Origin: Anthracocystis setariae
Lineage: Eukaryota; Basidiomycota; Ustilaginomycetes; Ustilaginales; Ustilaginaceae
NCBI GenBank assembly: GCA_928724745.1
Contig: CAKMXJ010000039.1
Span: forward strand, 310,001-374,000
Reading direction: 5' to 3'
Length of the DNA: 64,000 nucleotides
Numbering within the stretch: the stretch's first letter is position 1; the number at the start of each line of letters is the position of its first letter. The translations under genes and the position numbers were made by a program. The notes below the pieces were generated by a model, which saw nothing but the letters and a program-made list of their open reading frames with translations, made no database searches and had not been told where the DNA came from. Shown here piece by piece: positions 45,761-57,060 of this stretch.

Positions 45761-46010
45761 AGCTCGAAGTGTGTTCGAGTAGGGTTCTGAACGAAATCCA
45801 ATGATGTGTTTCGGGTTGAGAGTGCGATTTGTCTTGACAGGAGCGTCATTTGAAGGTGTTACCTCCACACGAGATCTCTGAGAGAAAGAGAAATCCGATT
45901 TCCAAAACTTTTTTTTTTTTTTGCTTTCCGCCGTGCTTTACGTTTGTGCATTCTCGACTTGTGACATCCACCACAGTTGCGGTGCTGGACTTTGCACGCT
46001 CAAGATCAGC

Positions 46011-48743
46011 ATGGTTGAGGAACGAACAAGTGGAGGAGGATCGTCGTCCTCCCGTCATCGAGACAGGGATGAACGCCGTTCGGAGCGAGACCGTCACCGC
46101 GGATCAAAGAGCAAGCATGAGGACGATAGGAAGCACAGTTCGAGGGGGGAGAGGGACGAGGATCGACATCGCCATCGAAACCATCATCGCAGTCATCGTC
46201 ATTCTGTTCACCGCCATAGAGATCACGACGAGGATGAACACGATCGTAATGAGAGGAAGCGGAAAAGGAGAGACGAGGATAACCACCGTCACAGGAGCGA
46301 ATCGCGAAGCCATCATGGACATCAGCGCGAGGATGTCGCGTCTAGACATCGATCTCACGGCGATGGCAGCCGTCACCATCGCGAAGAAAACCCTCGAGCA
46401 GAGGACAAACAGCCAGCCGCAGATTTTATCCCCACATCCGAGTCTTTGAACTTGTCCTCCAACTCCACCACCGCGGCTTCAACTTCGGAACCAGTTCTGA
46501 AAAGAGATGACTGGATGACAGCGGGTCTCCCCAGCGCCACCGACGATGAAGCCTCGTACTTCTCCTCGCTCGGAAAAGCTCGAATCAAAGCTCCTCGCCC
46601 GGAAAAGCCCGATCCGGAGAAACTCAAGATCAGCTCGCGCGAGCTCAACACCCAGCTCGTTCAAGGCAAGACGGTCGACGAGTACGAGGCGCCTTCGCAT
46701 CCTTCGCGCCCACCGTTCGGTGCGCCCGGATACGATTGGCGTATGACGAAGCTCAAGCGGACATGGGAGGCAGCCGAACAGGAAGGCAGGCGGGTAGAGG
46801 AGGTCGCGCTCGAGAGGTATGCGAGCTTGGAGGACTTCGAATACGCCGTGGCAGAGAAGAAATTTTTGGATGGCAAAGGTCAGGGTCAAGGGAAAGGGGA
46901 AAGGGGGGAGAATCAGGGTGTAAGGCGCACGCCTACTCTTCAAAGCGTTGCCCGGCGGAGCTATCTGCTTGCTGGTGGAAGTGCGGAAGAAGCGGAGGGT
47001 GCAGGTTCATCAAGAAGTGCAACCGACTCGCCAAGCATGTCGCGTCCAGCAAGCAGGCAAGGCTTCCGAAGACCAGGCGAATCTTCCACGCCTGCCACTC
47101 CCATGGCAGCTCAGCCATCCCGCCCTCCGCGCAACATCGGGTTCGAGACCTCGGCCTCCAAGCCGAGCACGCCCACAGCCATTCCCAGCGTCTTTACACC
47201 CGTACTTGAGCGTCCAGCTGCTGCATCGGATGCACCTCAAGCCGGCGTCATCGTGGACGACGGCTCTTGCGACCCGGACCGTCCCATCTTCACTCCAGAC
47301 CAACTCAACAAGCTGCAAGCCAAGATCCTGAAAGCCGAACTCATGGGTGAATCGGGCGTCTCTGAACTCCAAGTGGAGTACGAGCGCGAAACCGCTCGTG
47401 CCCAAGCGCATCGCTCTATTGCGGGCGATCGTGGTGGTGCTTTTGCTGCATCTTGTCACCGCGGTCAAGATGGCAAGCACGGCAGCACAGCAAGTGTGCT
47501 TGTTGAGGGAGGCGAGCGAGAGCTGCAAGTGCTGCCTACGCTCGATGCGCGCGGTCGGATGTACGATATCGGCTCGCTCACTGCCGATTCCTCGGACGTG
47601 CCGAACCCATCGGGTGGTAGTCGCCATCGCAAGCTCAAGGGTCGGGATACGTTTGAAGCGCGCGATCCGAAGACGGGCGAGATCGTGCGATACTCGGCCG
47701 ATGACGACACGGTGTCTCTGGGCGATTTGGTTCGGCAGGAAAAGTTTGGCGCCGGTTCACGTTGGCAGAAGGATGCGGATGCGGAGATGGCAGCCAACAT
47801 CATGTCGGATGCAGGGTTCAGTGGCGATTTGGAACAGCAGGATGACGAAGCGCATCGATATGCCAAGAAGCAGATGCGGAGTGACGCGCTCAAGAGGCAA
47901 TTTGCCATCAACGACTTTGCACGCACCAAAAAGGCGCTGGACCGATGTCGGTTTTGTTGGCAGGAGGAAGGGGCGAAGTCGCCGCGCGCGACCGTGGTCA
48001 GCTCCGGGTATCGAGCGTATCTGGCGATTCCGGAGGTGGAGGCTATCACGCCGGCGGCCAAGGACCATGTGTTGATCGTGCCGATGCAGCATCACTTGAG
48101 TCTGCTCGAGGCGGACGATGATACGTGGGAAGAGATCCGGAATTTCCAAAAGTGTCTTTTGCAATTGGCCGCCAGTCAGCGTCGTAGGGTTGTTTTCTTC
48201 GAGACGGTTCTCTCGCTAAAACCGCAACGGCATAGTGCGATTGAAGCGGTGGTGCTACCCGCTGAGGCGCTAGATCTCCTCCCGGGCGTATTCAAGCAGT
48301 CTCTGCGTAGTGTGGGGGACGAGTTCAGCACGCATGCCAAGGTGATCGAGTTTTCAGCTCAAAGACCATTTAGAAAGTCGCTTGTGCCCAACTTGCCCTA
48401 CTTTGCCGTCACCTGGGATTACAGTTGGTCCAATGGGTATGGGCATGTGATCGAGAATATGGACGCGGATGCGAGGCGCACGAACGAGGTGGATGCGTTT
48501 GATGTGCAGGAGATGTCGGCTGGCACGACCGGCGGCAACGAGGGAAAGTTCGACCCCAATTTTGCCAGAGATATCATCCGCGGTGTGTTGGAGGATCTCG
48601 ACAACGAGCAGCTGCATGCAGGCGGATACCTACGTTCATTTGGTACATCCAAACGCACCTCGGAAGAGGACAAGAAACGTACCAAAGCCACGTTCGCAAC
48701 GTCGTGGCACCAATTCGATTGGACCAAAATGCTCACCTCCTAA
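46011..48743 (+). CDS. Cwf19/CWF19L2-like splicing factor
   Basis: A 910-residue protein starting MVEERTSGGGSSSSRHRDRD; the reading frame upstream lacks an ATG. The first 150 residues are an Arg/His/Asp/Ser-rich tract. The middle is moderately conserved (EAPSHPSRPPFGAPGYDWR). The C-terminus has two CwfJ modules: the first from about residue 645 (CRFCWQEEGAKSP, then IVPMQHHLSL, a HIT-like motif), the second from about 790 to the end (RPFRKSLVPNLPYFAVTWDY). Cwf19 proteins associate with late spliceosomes and are linked to lariat debranching. The order and length fit CWF19L2 rather than the shorter CWF19L1. Confidence 0.9.
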   Translation: MVEERTSGGGSSSSRHRDRDERRSERDRHRGSKSKHEDDRKHSSRGERDEDRHRHRNHHRSHRHSVHRHRDHDEDEHDRNERKRKRRDEDNHRHRSESRSHHGHQREDVASRHRSHGDGSRHHREENPRAEDKQPAADFIPTSESLNLSSNSTTAASTSEPVLKRDDWMTAGLPSATDDEASYFSSLGKARIKAPRPEKPDPEKLKISSRELNTQLVQGKTVDEYEAPSHPSRPPFGAPGYDWRMTKLKRTWEAAEQEGRRVEEVALERYASLEDFEYAVAEKKFLDGKGQGQGKGERGENQGVRRTPTLQSVARRSYLLAGGSAEEAEGAGSSRSATDSPSMSRPASRQGFRRPGESSTPATPMAAQPSRPPRNIGFETSASKPSTPTAIPSVFTPVLERPAAASDAPQAGVIVDDGSCDPDRPIFTPDQLNKLQAKILKAELMGESGVSELQVEYERETARAQAHRSIAGDRGGAFAASCHRGQDGKHGSTASVLVEGGERELQVLPTLDARGRMYDIGSLTADSSDVPNPSGGSRHRKLKGRDTFEARDPKTGEIVRYSADDDTVSLGDLVRQEKFGAGSRWQKDADAEMAANIMSDAGFSGDLEQQDDEAHRYAKKQMRSDALKRQFAINDFARTKKALDRCRFCWQEEGAKSPRATVVSSGYRAYLAIPEVEAITPAAKDHVLIVPMQHHLSLLEADDDTWEEIRNFQKCLLQLAASQRRRVVFFETVLSLKPQRHSAIEAVVLPAEALDLLPGVFKQSLRSVGDEFSTHAKVIEFSAQRPFRKSLVPNLPYFAVTWDYSWSNGYGHVIENMDADARRTNEVDAFDVQEMSAGTTGGNEGKFDPNFARDIIRGVLEDLDNEQLHAGGYLRSFGTSKRTSEEDKKRTKATFATSWHQFDWTKMLTS

Positions 48744-48829: not shown

Positions 48830-51800
48830 CTAGAGGCTAGAAGACTCATGACTAGGCCACACCTTCCTTGGCGGCGTCGCAGTAGGCACCCGCATCTCCC
48901 TTGGGAACAAGCCCTCCAACCTGGCACCACCCGCCACGGCCTTGACCAACCTCCTCGCTTCGGCGCCCGTAGGTGCATCGGCCTTGGGCGTAGCACCGGG
49001 CAACGTCACCAACCCTAACTCGACGAGCTTGCGGTGTTCCTTGGGCGACCTCCTGTTGGGTGCCACCTTGTACGTGGCGGCGGCATACAGACGTGGGTCT
49101 TCGGTGCGAAGATCCTCCAACGCTTCGCGAAGACGCGCTTGCTTCTTGTCGAGACGATCCGCGAGCTCCTCGCGCTGGGTGCGCTGGAAGAGCAGCCAAG
49201 CGCGCGTGATGGTCGAGTGGATCTCCTCCGACGCCTCACCGAACGGGAGGACGGCCGAGGCGGACGTGGCCGAAAGCGCCGCTCGATCCTTGGCTGAAAT
49301 GGGTGCAGGGGGGAAGACGATCTTGCGGATCGAGTCGGTGCGTGGGTCGGCGGCGGGCGCGACGTAGTTGGGATCGTTCGGGTTGCGCGAGCCTCCACCG
49401 GGCTTGGCGGCCGTAGCGTAGCCACGAACACCGCCAAGCACCTTGGAGGCGGCGGACTTGGCGGCACCCGCCGCGGCGGAGAAGGCACCGGAAAGTCCAG
49501 AAGCAGCAGAAGAGGTGGCTTGCTCACGGATCAGGTTGAGTGCCGAGCCGGCGCGGATCCAATCCAGGTGGGCGGCCGAGAGCGAGTGCTTGGTAGGCAG
49601 CTCGAAGGTCTCCTTGATCGTCTTGCCGTCCTGCTCGAACTTGGTCACGCGCAGCTTGACCTGCGTGGAGAGGTCTCCGCCGGGGCGGATCAGGTCGGTG
49701 AGGTTGACGGTCTCGACCACATCGCCCGAGCCGATCCTGAGATAGTCGTCCTCGTTCTCGAACAGGAGCGTCAGGACACCCTGCTTGCGCAAGTTGGTCT
49801 CGGCGATACGGGCGATGGAGCGGGCGACGATGAGGTTGCATCCGTAGAAGCGGGGCTGCAGAGCGGCGTGCTCACGGGCGGAGCCTTCGCCGTAGTTGTG
49901 GTCGGCCACCATCATCCAAGGCTGCTGACGCGACTTGTAGATCTTGGCGACGCCGGGAATGGTGTCCTGCTTGCCCGTCTCGTAGTCCTGAGCGACGTTG
50001 ACGGCGTCGAACTCGTCGTTGGTGGCACCGATCAGCGTGTTCTCGGCAAGGTTGGAGAGGTGACCCTTGTACTTGAGCCAGGGACCGGCCGCCGAGATGT
50101 GGTCGGTGGTGCACTTGCCCTTGATCCTCAACAGGCAGCGCATGCTAGGCAGCTCGTACTTGCCCTGAGCGGCCGTAGCGGCGAAGGGGCTGTCGAAGGG
50201 CTGGAGAGGCTCGAGACGGGCCGAGGTGGGACTGATCAGCACCTCGGTGTCGGGCTGAGGCTCGGGCATGGGGGTGGGGAGGTAGTTGACATCACCCTGG
50301 GCGAATCCGCTGGCGGGGAGCACATCGCTCTGGGGAGGCTCGAACTTGAAAGGCTTGCCGTCCGGCGCAGTGAGGCTGTCGGTCATGGGGTTGAAGTCGA
50401 GACGGCCGGCAAAGGCCATGGCGGTGACGATCTCGGGGGAAGCGAGCAGGTTCCACGTCTTGGAGTTGCCGTCGTTACGGCCTCGAAAGTTACGGTTGAA
50501 CGAGGTGAGGATGACATTGTCTTGGCCCTGAAGCTCCTTTCGGTTCCACTGACCAATGCAAGGGCCACAAGCGTTGGCAAGAACGCGACCCCCTACGTCG
50601 GTCAAGATCTGCTGGATCCCGTCGCGCTCGACCGTGGCACGGACCTGCTCGGAACCCGGGGTGACGTCGAAGCTGGCCTTGACCTTCATGCCGCGGTCGC
50701 GGGCCTGCTGAGCGAGCGAAGCGCAACGGGCCATATCGGCGTAGGACGAGTTGGTGCAACTGCCGATCAGAGCAGCACTGAGCTCGACGGGATGGTCGCG
50801 GGCCTCGGACTTGGCCTTGTTGACGAATTGCGAGAGAGGGGTGCTGAGGTCGGGCGTAAAGGGGCCGTTGAGGCAAGGCTCCAGATCGGACAGGTTGATC
50901 TCGATTCGCTCGTCGTATTCGGCACCCTCGTCAGCGGCCAGGAAGCCTTGCGCCGCGGCCTTTTCGGCAGCACGAGCCACCTCAGCGCGGCCGGTCGCCT
51001 CGAGGTAGGCGCTCATGGCAGGGGTGAAGGGGAAGGCCGAGGTGGTGGCGCCTACCTCGGCACCCATGTTGGACATGGTGGCGAGACCGGTGGCGGGAAG
51101 CTTCTGGAGACCGGGACCCGAGTATTCAACGATCTTGCCGGTGCCGCCTCGGACAGTGAGCTTGCCAGCGAGATGAAGGATGACATCCTTGGGCGTGCAC
51201 CAAGGGCTGAGCTCGCCCTTGAGGTGGACACCAAGCACCTTGGGTGCCATGAGCTCCCAAGGCGTGTTGGTCATGGCATCGACGGCGTCAGCGCCGCCGA
51301 CACCGATCGCAAGACATCCAAGACCGGAAGCGTTGGGCGTGTGGGAGTCGGTGCCGAGCATGAGGAGACCGGGGGCGGCGTAGTTCTCGAGAACGATCTG
51401 GTGGATGATACCGGAACCGGGGCCCCAGAACTCGATGCCGTACTTCTTGCAAGCGGACTCGAGGAAGGCGAAAACCTCTTGGTTGGAGGCGATGGAACGC
51501 TTGAGATCCGCCTGAGCACCCTCGTAGGCTTGGATCAGATGGTCGCAGTGAACACTGGAGGGGATGGCGACACGAGGCAGACCGCAGGTCATGAACTGCA
51601 ACAAAGCCATCTGAGCCGAGGCATCCTGCATGGCAAGACGGTCGATCTTGAGCTTGAGGTACTTGTTGCCTCGAATCGCCGAAACATCGGCGCCTACGCC
51701 AGCGAGGTCCTGCTCTGGGTTGCGAAGATGCGAGTAGAGGATCTTTTCGGAAAGGGTGAGAGGCCGATGGAGCTGCTGGCGAACGATCTCGAGGTTGGAG

Positions 51801-51955
51801 AGCAGCTCGGTGTAGGGAGGCACGCGCGATGGGTGGAAGGTAGGAACGCGGCCGTCGACAGCGGGCGTGGCGAGGGTGCGCTTGGCACCGATGGCCTTGT
51901 GAGCAGCCGAAAGGCCGTTGCGACCCCTCTGTACACGCGCGAGCGAGGCGATCAT
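48830..51955 (-). CDS. Mitochondrial aconitase fused to ribosomal protein mL40
   Basis: A continuous 1041-residue frame read from the ATG at 51955. Residues 1-30 form a basic mitochondrial presequence (ending AKRTLATPAV). The aconitase body (about 45-800) has MQDASAQMALLQF, LGTDSHTPNASGLG, the cluster cysteines in GSCTNSSY (about 401) and ANACGPCIGQW (about 465), FRGRNDGNSKTW, DHISAAGPW and NYGEGSAREHAA. An Ala/Ser/Gly linker (about 805-865) holds VRGYATAAK. The last 175 residues resemble mitochondrial large-subunit protein mL40 (Mrpl28): DSIRKIVFPP, HSTITRAWLLFQRTQREE, DPRLYAAA and the tail FPREMRVPTATPPRKVW. Aconitase isomerises citrate, or homocitrate-derived intermediates for Aco2-type enzymes, in the matrix. 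S. pombe aco2 is a known aconitase fusion to a different ribosomal protein. Confidence 0.9.
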   Translation of the reverse strand: MIASLARVQRGRNGLSAAHKAIGAKRTLATPAVDGRVPTFHPSRVPPYTELLSNLEIVRQQLHRPLTLSEKILYSHLRNPEQDLAGVGADVSAIRGNKYLKLKIDRLAMQDASAQMALLQFMTCGLPRVAIPSSVHCDHLIQAYEGAQADLKRSIASNQEVFAFLESACKKYGIEFWGPGSGIIHQIVLENYAAPGLLMLGTDSHTPNASGLGCLAIGVGGADAVDAMTNTPWELMAPKVLGVHLKGELSPWCTPKDVILHLAGKLTVRGGTGKIVEYSGPGLQKLPATGLATMSNMGAEVGATTSAFPFTPAMSAYLEATGRAEVARAAEKAAAQGFLAADEGAEYDERIEINLSDLEPCLNGPFTPDLSTPLSQFVNKAKSEARDHPVELSAALIGSCTNSSYADMARCASLAQQARDRGMKVKASFDVTPGSEQVRATVERDGIQQILTDVGGRVLANACGPCIGQWNRKELQGQDNVILTSFNRNFRGRNDGNSKTWNLLASPEIVTAMAFAGRLDFNPMTDSLTAPDGKPFKFEPPQSDVLPASGFAQGDVNYLPTPMPEPQPDTEVLISPTSARLEPLQPFDSPFAATAAQGKYELPSMRCLLRIKGKCTTDHISAAGPWLKYKGHLSNLAENTLIGATNDEFDAVNVAQDYETGKQDTIPGVAKIYKSRQQPWMMVADHNYGEGSAREHAALQPRFYGCNLIVARSIARIAETNLRKQGVLTLLFENEDDYLRIGSGDVVETVNLTDLIRPGGDLSTQVKLRVTKFEQDGKTIKETFELPTKHSLSAAHLDWIRAGSALNLIREQATSSAASGLSGAFSAAAGAAKSAASKVLGGVRGYATAAKPGGGSRNPNDPNYVAPAADPRTDSIRKIVFPPAPISAKDRAALSATSASAVLPFGEASEEIHSTITRAWLLFQRTQREELADRLDKKQARLREALEDLRTEDPRLYAAATYKVAPNRRSPKEHRKLVELGLVTLPGATPKADAPTGAEARRLVKAVAGGARLEGLFPREMRVPTATPPRKVWPSHESSSL

Positions 51956-52502
51956 GATGAGAAGAAGCTGCGTGCGGCGCACTCCGGGGCGGGGGTGGAT
52001 GGCGACCGAGTACGATGTAGCGCTGTCTTGCCTAGCTCTGGTGGTGGGAGAGTAGGGTGTGACGTCGAATGCGCAAGATGCAATGGCAAGAAGGAGGTAG
52101 CAAGGAAGGAAAGCAAGCAAGCAGAAGCAGAAACCGCGTTACGGTCAAAGTGCGAGTGTGTGACTGACTTGAGCGGCGCTATCGGAAGAAAAGCCTTTCT
52201 TCTCGTTTTTCAGGGTCGAAAGCGACGCACCCACTCACCCACTTTGCAAAATTCTACGGCAGCAGAGGCCGTCTCAAACGAAAAATCAGCCGCTGATGGC
52301 CAATCCACCGCTCCTCATTTGCTTTTCAAAGTTACGCGGATCGGGAAAAATCGGGGGCGATCTCTTGATTTGTTCGTACTTTGATCTCTACCCAGTGACG
52401 ACTCGCTAGGTCGACAACATTCATCATATCTAGTGCAGTCTATTCGATGTGGAGGCAGAGTGGTGTGTGATCGAGCTGGGAGGTGACGACGGGCTCAACA
52501 AG
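51956..52502. other. Intergenic region between aconitase fusion and RdRP
   Basis: About 550 bases. An ATG-initiated in-frame extension of the aconitase frame to 52120 exists but lacks presequence character. The region should hold the aconitase promoter and the RdRP 3' UTR. Confidence 0.45.
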
Positions 52503-55500
52503 TTATGCGTCAGGTCCGTTGGCTTGGGTCGATTCAAAGTTACGGGTGATGATCCTTTTGCGCAGTCCGAGCACGTCCAGCGTCGAGATGGGCATGGTCA
52601 GGCTACCGAGACCTTGCACCTTGACTCCGCTGCTCCCTTCGTTGCCTGCTGCTTCCGCTTTCAGATACATGATCCAACGCCATGCCATCTCGAAAGCGAA
52701 CTTGGGACGCGACGAATACGTGATGGAATACGCGTACGAGGCGCGCAGCGCCTCCAGCCTAGCAACTTCCATCCGATCCATCTTGGCGATCTGATCCACC
52801 ATCGATCGAGGCCATTGGCAGAATCGCATCGCCACTTCGCTTGTTGAGCCCAGGATCGTTGGCACTTCGATCGACGCCGCCAGCTTCGTGTGCCTGTCTC
52901 CTCGGTCGAGATCGTCGACCGCATGCGCCGATCCTTCCCCATTATGGTCGCGGCCAAAGAGCGCCGGCGTCGCCTCTGACCGAACCCGACGCAACGGCAC
53001 GCCTTTGGCTTTGGGCTTGGTGGGAGACTCGCCACGGCGCATCTCCCGCGCTTTAGTCTCGATCGTCTGGTACATTCGCACATTGGTGCGAATGTACGTC
53101 TCTTCCATGACCTTGCAATGCGACTGGATGGCTTCCTCTAGATCCGGTTTGATCCTCTTTTGCTCACGAGCATGCCTCCATAGATCCGAAATTGCCTTGT
53201 CTTCCGCTCCACGCAGCTTGGCTGCCATGTCGTACATCTGCTTCTTCAGCAGACCTACTTCCATTTTGCCTTCCTCCCACAGCGCGCAGAGCACCGACTC
53301 GGGTCGCGATGCATTCTTGACCGCCGTCAACCCCGGCGCAAGCTCCTTCATCGACGACCAATCGTACCGCGGTCCGTCCTCTTGGTGATCCTGCGCCCAT
53401 TCCGGCAACTCGGCTAGGTATTTTTTGCTATCCTCTATGCGAACTTCGGGCTTGATGACCAATCCGGTCTTGGCCGAGTCCATGCACTGGCAAAACTTTT
53501 GTGCAAGCTCCACAGCCTCGTCAGACTGGATGCCGAACTGCCAGGCGGCGTAGAGGTGCATGGCACCATACAGGCCCCGCACCGCTGGATCAAAGACGCC
53601 GGCGACGAGGCGCTCGATGAGGGCCGTGTCTCGCGCTGCCTTGTCTTTTGCCTGTTGCGCCGCCACGAACTCCCTGACAGTTTCCTTGGACTGGTTGAAT
53701 ACGTCGGCAGTCTCGAATGGAGACTTGGCATAGCGGAGATCGGCATTCCGGAATGGCTCGACCAGAGACGGTTCCCAGAACACTCGGATCAGATCACCGT
53801 CGTAGTCACCACCACTCAACAGAGACGCGAGCGGGGTCTGACCCTTGGTAGAGAAGACGACCACGTCCTGGTACAGACTCAGCTCGGGACGCACGACCGC
53901 CTTGACCTTGCGCACATCGGTCGGCAACAAGCAGGGATGGCGCGTGACCAGCACATCGCCTTCGGGCACGTGGTCAACGCCAAGCTTGGTGTCTGGATCG
54001 AAGAGGCTGCCGCTGCTGAAGCGAAACTGAATCTCCCCCTCCTCCAGGGTGCCCGTGGGATCTGGAATCACCATCGCCTCTGCACTTCGATGGATAGGGA
54101 TAGCAAAACGACCGATGACCTTCTTCATCGCCTGGGATGCGATGTCGATCAACAAGTCCGCAAGATACGAGCATGACTTGGGATGGAAGCCTACCAGCAG
54201 CATCTCGTAGGCACACTCGTGCTTGCTCAGCGGCTTGCCGTTCCACAGATGTCTTCCGTCCTGGCCGAAGAAGATGGAGCGATCGTCGTCGCCCAAGCCG
54301 TGTTCGCCGGTGTTGTCCCTTGCTACCAGCGAGTCCATCCCTTGAGCGCGATGTTCGGCGGCTTCGGTGCTCCTTTTCGCCTTCAAAGACTCCACCTTGC
54401 ACAGACGCTCGACCACCGTCGCGAGGCGGAGGCAGACCTGGGTTTTGGGGCCGTCCCAATTGACAATGTCGTCTCGGATCGCGCACAGCTCGGCTCTCTG
54501 CAATTCGGCGAACGTGCTGATCGAAACGCCGTTGCTGTGGAGCACCAGGATGATCTGCTTGGATAAGGTCGATTGCGCGAAAGTCCGGGACGGCCCGAGT
54601 AGATCGACGACATGTTGACTGAGGTCCAAAGGTTTGTTGTCTGGATAGCAGATTTTTTTCTGCGAATCCCGAATCGCGATGGAGCGGATCGGTTCTTGCC
54701 CCGGAAGCCAGCGATGGGCGGCTGGGTCGAGATACCATACGCCTTTGGAACCAGCAATTCGGCCTTGGAACGCCGACGGCACGGATGCGCTGCCGAGGTG
54801 CTGGGCAATGTCCTGTGCAACAGCAAGCGACATGATGCCGGCTCCATCGGTCATGACCTCTCGCTTGCCGGTGACCGTATCTGGCTCTCCAAGCACGTCC
54901 GGAATGTAATCGATGCCGTCCACGACCGATGCCGGGACGGAAGTCGACAAGCCGAGTTGAATGCGCTGAATGAACTTGCCAAGAGGAGCGTTCATGTTCT
55001 CTGCCCAAGGAGCATGGTGGTCGATGAAATCCCAGACGCAGTCGAACTCGGGTTGGTCCGGGGAGTCGATTGGCGAGCCAATCCAGAGGTAGAAGACGGT
55101 TTCATCCTTGCAGATGAAAGGACGATAGACACGTCCTAGAATTTGCAGAGGCTGAGCGAAGAAGTCGGAGATCTCTTGGTGGATCTCGCGGGTTTTGGGA
55201 TGCACGGCGAACCTTCTCGCGTCCTTGGCCATGGCTGGGTCGATCTTGAGCCGCAAAATGCTCTGGCTGCCAAAGCGTCTCGAGAAACGGCAGCTTCCTC
55301 CGAGCTTGGGTGGAAGCAGCTGCACTCTGAATTCGCGGTGCTTGCGAGGCTTGGTCGATCCTGGAACGTGGTCGACCTTGTCACTCGAGATGCGGCCCTC
55401 GAAAAGAACACGGCCACCAAACGACCTTGTCTTGGCGCCTGGAGGACCAATGACGCCATTGATGGGCGACTCGGCGAGCATCTGTGCCTCTCGATCAAGC

Positions 55501-56309
55501 TCGGCACACATCTGGCGCTCGCGATCCGTGACGCGTCTCGAGATGACGAGGGTGTCGGGGGATTGGGACTCCCAAAGTAGGTGCTGATTGGCAGGGTCGA
55601 AAAGGGCGCATAGGGAGGTTGCATGGGACTTGGAGCGAAGCACGTTGATGCCGGTTGTGATCTTGAGCTTGTCCAAGGACAGGGGGCTGAGGGAAGCTAG
55701 CGAGGCCAAGTAGAACTGGGTGACCCATGGGACAGCTTGCCGACCATCCTTCTGTGGCTGCATGACCTTGACGCGCATGTGGCTGTTGACGACGACGAAC
55801 GGGGGCCTGAGCTTCGATCGATGTGCGCCTCCGCTGACAGGGCTGAACGCTGGGCGTGATGCTTGTGTTCGGAGCGATTCGGCGACGGTGGTCAGTGTAG
55901 GGTCGTTCGAGGAAGCTGTGGGAGAAGGAGACTTGATCTTGCCCTTGCTGATGGGGGACGAAGATCGAGATGGCGGCGGTGATTTGGAGGTGGCCTGGGA
56001 GGATTGGGGTGAATCGAAGCAGGATTCGATCAGAGGCGCATCGAGGAAAGAGTCGGTGTCGGATGCGGAAGAGGATGTGGGATCCGGAACAGTAGTGCGA
56101 GCTTGCATGACGGTGTTGACGAAGAGGTCACTGCGAATGGCGTCTTTGGAAGATGAGGATTGTAGCTGCGTGGCTTGGCAAGCGAGCTTTTTCGAAGCGG
56201 GCAACGAAGCTTCTATGGCGGTCCTCTTGCGTGATGACTTGTCTTGATGATGCATAGCAACGTTTGAACTGCCAACATACCGATCAAGACTTGGCTCGTG
56301 TTGCTGCAT
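52503..56309 (-). CDS. RNA-dependent RNA polymerase (RNA silencing type)
   Basis: A 1268-residue frame read from ATG 56309 (MQQHEPSLDRYVGSS). A further ATG at 56486 would add 59 residues that look like leader. The eukaryotic RdRP catalytic loop is SGGDYDGDLIRVFW (about residue 833, DxDGD). Supporting blocks are IDYIPDVLGEPDTVTGKREV / MTDGAGIMSLAVAQDIA, PSAFQGRIAGSKGVWYLDP, VLVTRHPCLLPTDVRKVKAV and DVVVFSTKGQTPLASLL. These enzymes make double-stranded RNA that feeds Dicer and Argonaute. The first 150 residues are Ser/Pro-rich and disordered. No stop or frameshift interrupts the gene, so it appears functional. No other RNAi gene is in the window. Confidence 0.95.
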   Translation of the reverse strand: MQQHEPSLDRYVGSSNVAMHHQDKSSRKRTAIEASLPASKKLACQATQLQSSSSKDAIRSDLFVNTVMQARTTVPDPTSSSASDTDSFLDAPLIESCFDSPQSSQATSKSPPPSRSSSPISKGKIKSPSPTASSNDPTLTTVAESLRTQASRPAFSPVSGGAHRSKLRPPFVVVNSHMRVKVMQPQKDGRQAVPWVTQFYLASLASLSPLSLDKLKITTGINVLRSKSHATSLCALFDPANQHLLWESQSPDTLVISRRVTDRERQMCAELDREAQMLAESPINGVIGPPGAKTRSFGGRVLFEGRISSDKVDHVPGSTKPRKHREFRVQLLPPKLGGSCRFSRRFGSQSILRLKIDPAMAKDARRFAVHPKTREIHQEISDFFAQPLQILGRVYRPFICKDETVFYLWIGSPIDSPDQPEFDCVWDFIDHHAPWAENMNAPLGKFIQRIQLGLSTSVPASVVDGIDYIPDVLGEPDTVTGKREVMTDGAGIMSLAVAQDIAQHLGSASVPSAFQGRIAGSKGVWYLDPAAHRWLPGQEPIRSIAIRDSQKKICYPDNKPLDLSQHVVDLLGPSRTFAQSTLSKQIILVLHSNGVSISTFAELQRAELCAIRDDIVNWDGPKTQVCLRLATVVERLCKVESLKAKRSTEAAEHRAQGMDSLVARDNTGEHGLGDDDRSIFFGQDGRHLWNGKPLSKHECAYEMLLVGFHPKSCSYLADLLIDIASQAMKKVIGRFAIPIHRSAEAMVIPDPTGTLEEGEIQFRFSSGSLFDPDTKLGVDHVPEGDVLVTRHPCLLPTDVRKVKAVVRPELSLYQDVVVFSTKGQTPLASLLSGGDYDGDLIRVFWEPSLVEPFRNADLRYAKSPFETADVFNQSKETVREFVAAQQAKDKAARDTALIERLVAGVFDPAVRGLYGAMHLYAAWQFGIQSDEAVELAQKFCQCMDSAKTGLVIKPEVRIEDSKKYLAELPEWAQDHQEDGPRYDWSSMKELAPGLTAVKNASRPESVLCALWEEGKMEVGLLKKQMYDMAAKLRGAEDKAISDLWRHAREQKRIKPDLEEAIQSHCKVMEETYIRTNVRMYQTIETKAREMRRGESPTKPKAKGVPLRRVRSEATPALFGRDHNGEGSAHAVDDLDRGDRHTKLAASIEVPTILGSTSEVAMRFCQWPRSMVDQIAKMDRMEVARLEALRASYAYSITYSSRPKFAFEMAWRWIMYLKAEAAGNEGSSGVKVQGLGSLTMPISTLDVLGLRKRIITRNFESTQANGPDA

Positions 56310-57060
56310 GGTCTGGCGAGGAAGGATGGGAAAGAGAATGGAGCACGGGAAGATGGCTTGGCTGGAGCTGACAAAGGTGCGGATGCGTGGTGACAAAAAG
56401 AGGTTGTCGGGCTGAGCGAGTTTGAAGGGGGTCAGAAAGGCAGGATCAAGGAACCATGGTGCGACTGCGGCTCTTAAGCTGATCAAAGCAACAGGCGAAA
56501 GGCGGCGCTCATGATGCGGCGGAAAGATGTCAAGAAATCGAAGTGAATGGTGCAGGAAGAGGTGTGTGCTTTGCGTGTCGGGCCAAGAGGCAGCAGGAAG
56601 AAGAAATCCACTGTGCGCAGCTGATACTGCAGTCTAGTGAAATGAAGTGCGGAAGAGATGGTCGTGGGCGCGATGCTGAATTCCTTGCATGAACGGACCG
56701 CGACGAAACCCATTGGAAGCTAGAGTAAAGATCGAGATTCGCCAATCTTGTTTGCGCAGCTTTCTCGAGCACCGATCGCGGGATACGATGGTGGACTCGA
56801 GCAGTGACGCTGTTTTGATGGCGCCGAACAAAGCTGTGGAGGTCGAGCTCCGGTGCGGACCTGCAGGATCGAGTCGGTGAGGAAGCCGGAACGGTTTTGC
56901 GCGAATCGGAGCTTGGACCACGTCTGGAGCCATCCAAGGAGCCGACTTTAGAGCGTCAAGACGTGAACAATGGGAACTTTGAGGACCATAGCGGCGTGTG
57001 GGACCAAGCGCTCGACGAGGCGTGGATGGGAGCGCTGAGATTGCCAAAGCACTTTGCGTC

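Follow-up and report, generated by a model that had tools for sequence, protein, structure and literature searches.

The closest precedents for the gene described here are fission-yeast Aco2-bL21 and yeast Arg5,6. In Schizosaccharomyces pombe, Aco2-bL21 (aco2, SPBP4H10.15; Jung 2015) holds an aconitase and a large-subunit mitoribosomal protein in one polypeptide and is tied to mitochondrial translation (PMC11431987). Yeast Arg5,6 is a tandem precursor that the mitochondrial processing peptidase (MPP) cuts internally, and internal MPP cleavage has been proposed for Rsm22-Cox11, Etp1, Atp25 and rice RPS14 (PMC8847149). We analysed 64,000 nucleotides of the Anthracocystis setariae genome (contig CAKMXJ010000039.1, positions 310,001 to 374,000; this whole stretch is called the window), in which a single gene encodes an aconitase, assigned from its sequence to the Aco2 type, together with the mitoribosomal protein mL40. 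As in Aco2-bL21, an aconitase is fused to a large-subunit mitoribosomal protein; the partner, however, is mL40, the comparison being with the fission-yeast protein as described in the literature.

The gene lies at positions 48830..51955 of the minus strand, to which all its parts given below belong. It is a single open frame running from an ATG at 51955 to a stop codon at 48830-48832, with 1041 codons (1041 amino acids) and no intron needed. Three Pfam domains fall in this one frame: Aconitase (470 bits), Aconitase_C (116 bits) and MRP-L28 (30.5 bits). A preliminary description of the window had proposed that a stop-free frame unites a full aconitase with mL40, and this is borne out, as the frame is open and Pfam finds both proteins in it. 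The fusion is real, a single gene coding for both proteins. Because 56 listed homologues show the same order of domains (one is cut short in the linker), a chance arrangement is excluded. There is hardly any probability left for an artefact of annotation or assembly, in which two genes would have been merged through a missed stop or intron: the genomic frame is open without introns, and 55 of the 56 listed relatives have the long tail. This explanation was rejected on the open frame and on the conservation of the arrangement among relatives.

The C-terminal part resembles mL40 (Mrpl28, MRP-L28) in a Pfam match over the cut-off, in its PDB matches and in a conserved C-terminal tail. The MRP-L28 profile matches residues 911-963 with 30.5 bits against a cut-off of 28.4 when the whole protein is searched, and with 30.0 bits on a slightly shorter piece. 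The best PDB matches of the region are mL40 of Saccharomyces cerevisiae (5mrc, 3j6b) and Neurospora crassa (6ywe), with E values of 5e-5 to 2e-4, and mL40 chains remain among the matches when the search is made with a 42-sequence profile. The tail that had been called mL40-like, FPREMRVPTATPPRKVW, occupies residues 1017-1033 and aligns with the C-terminus of the solved S. cerevisiae mL40. In an alignment that holds 42 of the 57 fused proteins, R928 is invariant (42/42) and aligns with Arg295 of N. crassa mL40, which contacts nicotinamide adenine dinucleotide in the central protuberance (PMC7560712). MRP-L28 is matched at E 0.01 or better in 37 of 42 fused relatives. Another family for this part was rejected, a scan of the 42 members at E 0.01 yielding only MRP-L28 and the two aconitase domains, and two weak matches below the cut-off (E 0.23-0.25) were dismissed as chance; the profile test therefore agrees with the preliminary assignment to mL40 and to no other family. 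The mL40 moiety comprises residues 849-1041 (48833..49411), with the Pfam core at 911-963, a modelled helix at 908-952 and the conserved tail at 1017-1033. Whereas the stand-alone mL40 found in Pucciniomycotina has its own N-terminus, in this fungus the protein is encoded as the tail of an enzyme.

The aconitase part, residues 48-809 (49529..51814; Pfam Aconitase 98-517, Aconitase_C 606-734), is matched by the mitochondrial-type aconitase model TIGR01340 over the full model length with 1108 bits, and aligns with pig aconitase (1aco) along its length. All three iron-sulphur (Fe-S) cysteines, earlier described as intact, are indeed present: C400, C463 and C466 align with pig C358, C421 and C424. 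The same genome encodes a second mitochondrial-type aconitase (L007, here Aco1), a 3-isopropylmalate dehydratase (L008) and a homoaconitase (L009). A short aconitase-like stretch of 49 bits in a small open frame at C7:131261-131527 (L005, L010) is a possible gene remnant.

The type of the enzyme is indicated by K630 (50066..50068), which stands at the position of pig R580, presumably the equivalent of R604 in yeast Aco1p. Lysine is found there in all 57 fused proteins and in 60 of 64 unfused orthologues (the other four were unparsed), while the genome's own Aco1 has arginine. Fazius 2012 describes lysine in place of the substrate arginine as setting apart the Aco2p subfamily, and yeast Aco2p, with the same lysine, is active on homoaconitate, its preferred substrate (PMC3556520). 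Source labels of the nearest orthologues include 'aconitate hydratase ACO2' and 'Homocitrate dehydratase'. By these sequence marks the fused enzyme is of the fungal Aco2 (homocitrate-dehydratase-like) type, and a role in the lysine pathway is plausible. Identity with the tricarboxylic acid cycle aconitase was rejected, since it is the separate mitochondrial aconitase L007 that bears the arginine typical of that cycle's enzyme. The locus thus resembles fungal aconitase group 2 (S. cerevisiae Aco2p, Aspergillus AcoB) both in the lysine and in the presence of a separate arginine-bearing aconitase in the genome, but differs from it in bearing a C-terminal mL40.

Aspergillus AcoB, which belongs to this subfamily and shares the lysine, had no activity as a recombinant protein (PMC3556520), and the aconitase part could likewise be catalytically silent and kept chiefly as an import leader for mL40, which would be compatible with cleavage. 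The residue at the pig S643 position would also suit a silent enzyme: it is alanine (A693, approximately 49877-49879) in 57/57 fused proteins and in 64/64 listed orthologues outside the fused clade, and serine in Aco1. In the part of Fazius 2012 considered, the lysine is named as the sole exception (PMC3556520). We nevertheless regard a silent aconitase as unlikely, given that yeast Aco2p with the same lysine is active on homoaconitate and that the mean modal fraction is 0.83 in the aconitase against 0.63 in the mL40 core, consistent with selection on the enzyme. A further point against silence is that the residues at the positions of pig S642, R644 and R447, which we take to be catalytic, are retained in the fused aconitase, as are the Fe-S cysteines.

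In order to follow the spread of the arrangement, homologues were searched with the aconitase part only, and the best 120 of 7999 scored proteins were listed. Among these, 56 fall in the fused clade and 64 outside it, and all but the one truncated in the linker (55/56) have a long tail. The tail past the last conserved aconitase motif (GSALN) has a median of 235 amino acids in the 57 fused proteins including that of the window (56 in the truncated one), against a median of 7 and a maximum of 23 in the unfused listed orthologues (62 of 64 parsed). Named fused genera are Ustilago, Moesziomyces, Kalmanozyma, Testicularia, Thecaphora, Violaceomyces, Exobasidium, Jaminaea, Tilletiaria, Ceraceosorus, Acaromyces, Tilletia and Malassezia. 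Taxonomic lineages were consulted for three of them, Malassezia, Tilletia and Kalmanozyma, which are all Ustilaginomycotina, and also for Rhodotorula and Mrakia as outgroups; the remaining named fused genera we take to be Ustilaginomycotina as well. The preliminary description had suggested looking for the fusion in other members of this subphylum; the named homologues of the fused clade belong to it, and nearly every relative found in the subphylum shares the fused arrangement.

A tree of the aconitase part was built with FastTree; it leaves out P0060 and P0125, and Aco1 of the same genome serves as its root and single outgroup row. The fused proteins form one clade in it with local support of 100. 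Because they form a single clade, one old fusion is likely, and the tree is most simply read as one event that took place in the common ancestor of the Ustilaginomycotina sampled, or earlier. The basidiomycete orthologues listed as nearest to the fused aconitase are unfused. As the partner differs and the basidiomycete orthologues are unfused, the event appears to be independent of the fission-yeast fusion, with the same enzyme class joined to another ribosomal protein; the suggestion made to this effect in the preliminary description is thus supported by inference. For some public proteins, existing Pfam annotation already shows all three domains side by side. A literature search of titles and abstract openings, in part of only the top of longer lists, found no report of an aconitase-mL40 fusion among the entries listed, and Jung 2015 and Friedl 2020 may mention it. 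Four further entries (P0037-P0040) were taken to be fragments of fused genes. Of these, P0037 starts inside the linker, P0040 still has the end of the aconitase, and P0039 is partial. P0038 (259 amino acids, on a 1.4-kb contig) has the mL40 piece attached to an apparent methyltransferase domain (PF01596) and looks like an assembly chimera.

A separate stand-alone mL40 gene was sought in the 21.5 Mb genome (36 contigs). A six-frame search with the MRP-L28 profile, in which introns were not modelled, matched only the fusion locus (27.4 bits) and no second mL40. A Rhodotorula stand-alone mL40, used as a query against the genome, found the fusion locus in two pieces and a weak match on contig C3 (E 0.0018, three internal stops), which was dismissed as chance. 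Both searches accord with the expectation that the fusion gene has no stand-alone counterpart. A bL21 fusion as in fission yeast was also rejected: the fusion protein has no L21 match at E up to 1, and an L21-family gene, taken as bL21m, lies on another contig (C8).

At the joint between the two proteins, a conserved motif is set in a drifting sequence. The linker, residues 812-843 (49427..49522), is hypervariable, Ala/Ser-rich and without acidic residues, and mostly of low model confidence. It is followed by RGYAT, residues 844-848 (49412..49426), a predicted internal cleavage site at which MPP would cut after G845 and Icp55 after Y846. In the 42-sequence alignment the linker has a mean modal fraction of 0.35, RGYAT one of 0.88, and R844 is the sole invariant residue between N807 and T915. 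The pattern R-x-[YFL]-[AST]-[ST] occurs within the first 75 linker residues in 53 of 53 parsed proteins, where shuffles expect 2.2. This count omits four of the 57 fused proteins, whose mL40 core does not match the pattern used for parsing; the linkers of P0049 (RAFST) and P0057 (RPYTT) meet the strict motif, and those of P0034 (RGMHT) and P0060 (RAMST) a looser form only. The motif agrees with R-x-(F/Y/I/L)|(S/A)(S/T), the published plant Icp55 consensus, which is said to resemble the yeast and mammalian sites remarkably closely (PMC8847149). By eye and with a loose pattern, two or more cleavage-like motifs were seen in the linkers of 14 of the 57 fused proteins (P0013, P0018, P0020, P0022, P0023, P0028, P0030, P0031, P0033, P0047, P0050, P0054, P0065 and P0066), a count that excludes P0032, with a motif immediately past the aconitase; the internal presequence looks in these cases as though it had grown longer or underwent two cuts.

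The composition of the joint is presequence-like. The stretch up to the site has 2.7% acidic and 13.2% basic residues, where the aconitase body has 11.8% and 9.4%, and the longest run without an acidic residue in the fusion protein of the window is 812-860. The second longest, residues 1-33, is at the N-terminus, where residues 1-28 (51872..51955) form a putative presequence ending in RTL|AT (residues 26-30), an R-3 type MPP/Icp55 site whose cleavage is predicted from the motif. Five stand-alone mL40s were found, and four of them (P0041, P0042, P0044 and P0045, from two Rhodotorula, Rhodosporidiobolus and Pseudohyphozyma) show by eye RAYAT, RHYAA or RAYAA near the N-terminus. This fits the retention of an ancestral mL40 presequence inside the fusion.

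These observations are probably best explained by a tandem mitochondrial precursor that is imported whole and cut at the joint into Aco2 and mL40. Since MPP cuts Arg5,6 internally and other composites have been proposed to be cut in this way, the aconitase-mL40 protein is read as such a precursor. In origin, the Aco2 frame would have been extended into the mL40 gene, keeping part of the mL40 targeting sequence, and the order of the precursor would be N-terminal presequence, Aco2-type [4Fe-4S] aconitase, retained mL40 presequence and mL40. The entire chain would be imported into mitochondria, where MPP would remove the N-terminal presequence and also cleave within RGYAT, Icp55 then trimming the tyrosine. 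The products would be a free aconitase (approximately residues 29-845) and a free mL40 (approximately 847-1041), supplied in equimolar amounts, and the freed mL40 would join the central protuberance of the large mitoribosomal subunit. As the joint retains a presequence-type cleavage site, a permanent conjugate is less likely than two proteins that are separate when mature. MPP-cut tandem precursors such as yeast Arg5,6 share with the present gene the two mature proteins per precursor and the presequence-like site at the joint; they differ in their partners, and here the cleavage is predicted and there is no amphipathicity signal.

The last point belongs to several that weigh against the tandem precursor. 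Linker amphipathicity is no higher than in the linkers' own shuffles (mean p 0.55; 2/56 below 0.05; P0060 omitted), so that the presequence character rests on composition and the site. The shuffle and conservation counts take related sequences as independent, and five of the 42 fused relatives are without an MRP-L28 match at E 0.01. The fifth stand-alone mL40 (P0043) has no N-terminal motif; stand-alone mL40 was found in few species, the named ones being Pucciniomycotina, in a search that did not reach Agaricomycotina. The fusion locus itself scored 27.4 bits in the six-frame scan, just below the cut-off of 28.4, and a divergent or intron-split second mL40 could therefore escape. Finally, the stretch from the end of the aconitase to the mL40 core includes one Met or more in 36 of the 53 proteins parsed, which makes internal starts possible in relatives.

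The fusion may instead stay uncut, with mL40 in the mitoribosome and the aconitase flexibly tethered to it, so that the ribosome would carry an Fe-S enzyme. The structure model, built from 42 sequences (mean pLDDT, the predicted local distance difference test, 69.7), gives values below 50 for residues 818-874, a possible tether, and a mL40 helix at 908-952. The model, which is also of low confidence at parts of the aconitase active site and too weak to be used beyond these two features, fits a disordered linker followed by a long mL40 helix. The fission-yeast gene offers a further parallel, with an enzyme domain connected to a mitoribosomal protein and required for mitochondrial protein synthesis (PMC11431987). 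A mere tether, however, needs neither an invariant arginine nor a conserved RGYAT amid a drifting linker, and the same type of site occurs at stand-alone mL40 N-termini; we hold an uncut fusion to be very improbable.

Two products might also arise at the RNA level, early polyadenylation giving an aconitase-only mRNA beside the full-length fusion mRNA, a scheme compatible with MPP cleavage. For fission-yeast aco2, alternative poly(A) sites giving aconitase-only and Aco2-bL21 mRNAs have reportedly been observed, and this precedent favours the scheme. No GTRNGT splice donor occurs in the 300-base junction, a negative that concerns splicing and not poly(A) sites. The window's frame lacks any Met from M682 to M1021 other than these two; mL40 therefore has no start at an AUG of its own, and a product with mL40 only would lack one. 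Distinct RNA-level products thus seem improbable, though less so than the uncut fusion. The explanations considered here are not all mutually exclusive, and their probabilities and that of the tandem precursor need not total one.

The fusion involves a different mitoribosomal protein from that of fission yeast and has been maintained from Ustilago to Tilletia to Malassezia. A far-reaching version, which we consider quite unlikely, is that the mitoribosome of the subphylum depends obligatorily on a lysine-pathway Fe-S enzyme: every mL40 would be born on Aco2, and cluster supply or lysine metabolism would gate assembly of the central protuberance. If this were true, Aco2 folding or cluster loading would precede mL40 release. 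If the independence of the two fusions is true, aconitase has become tied to mitochondrial translation on at least two occasions in fungi, which raises the question of whether there is a functional link or whether fusions are tolerated because a cut is possible at the presequence in the joint. This question is open to direct test through the conserved site. In practice, a mitoribosomal protein would probably be lost as well when the 'aconitase' gene is deleted in Ustilago or Malassezia, with a phenotype that could be mistaken for a metabolic one, and mL40 may appear to be missing from the gene lists of fungi with the fusion.

Regarding the surroundings of the gene, a CwfJ-domain gene (PF04677, PF04676) on the plus strand at 45921-48743 is convergent with it, 86 bases separating the stop codons. 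A 954-amino-acid open frame on the plus strand (49520-52384) is antisense to most of the fusion gene and is probably a by-product of GC-rich third codon positions. The upstream gene, at 52503-56486 on the minus strand, encodes an RNA-dependent RNA polymerase (PF05183, 360 bits), and a Piwi-domain (Argonaute-like) gene lies elsewhere in the genome (C11:421877-422797). Ustilago maydis has lost RNA interference. As genes for both an RNA-dependent RNA polymerase and a Piwi-domain protein are present, RNA interference has probably been retained in Anthracocystis setariae.

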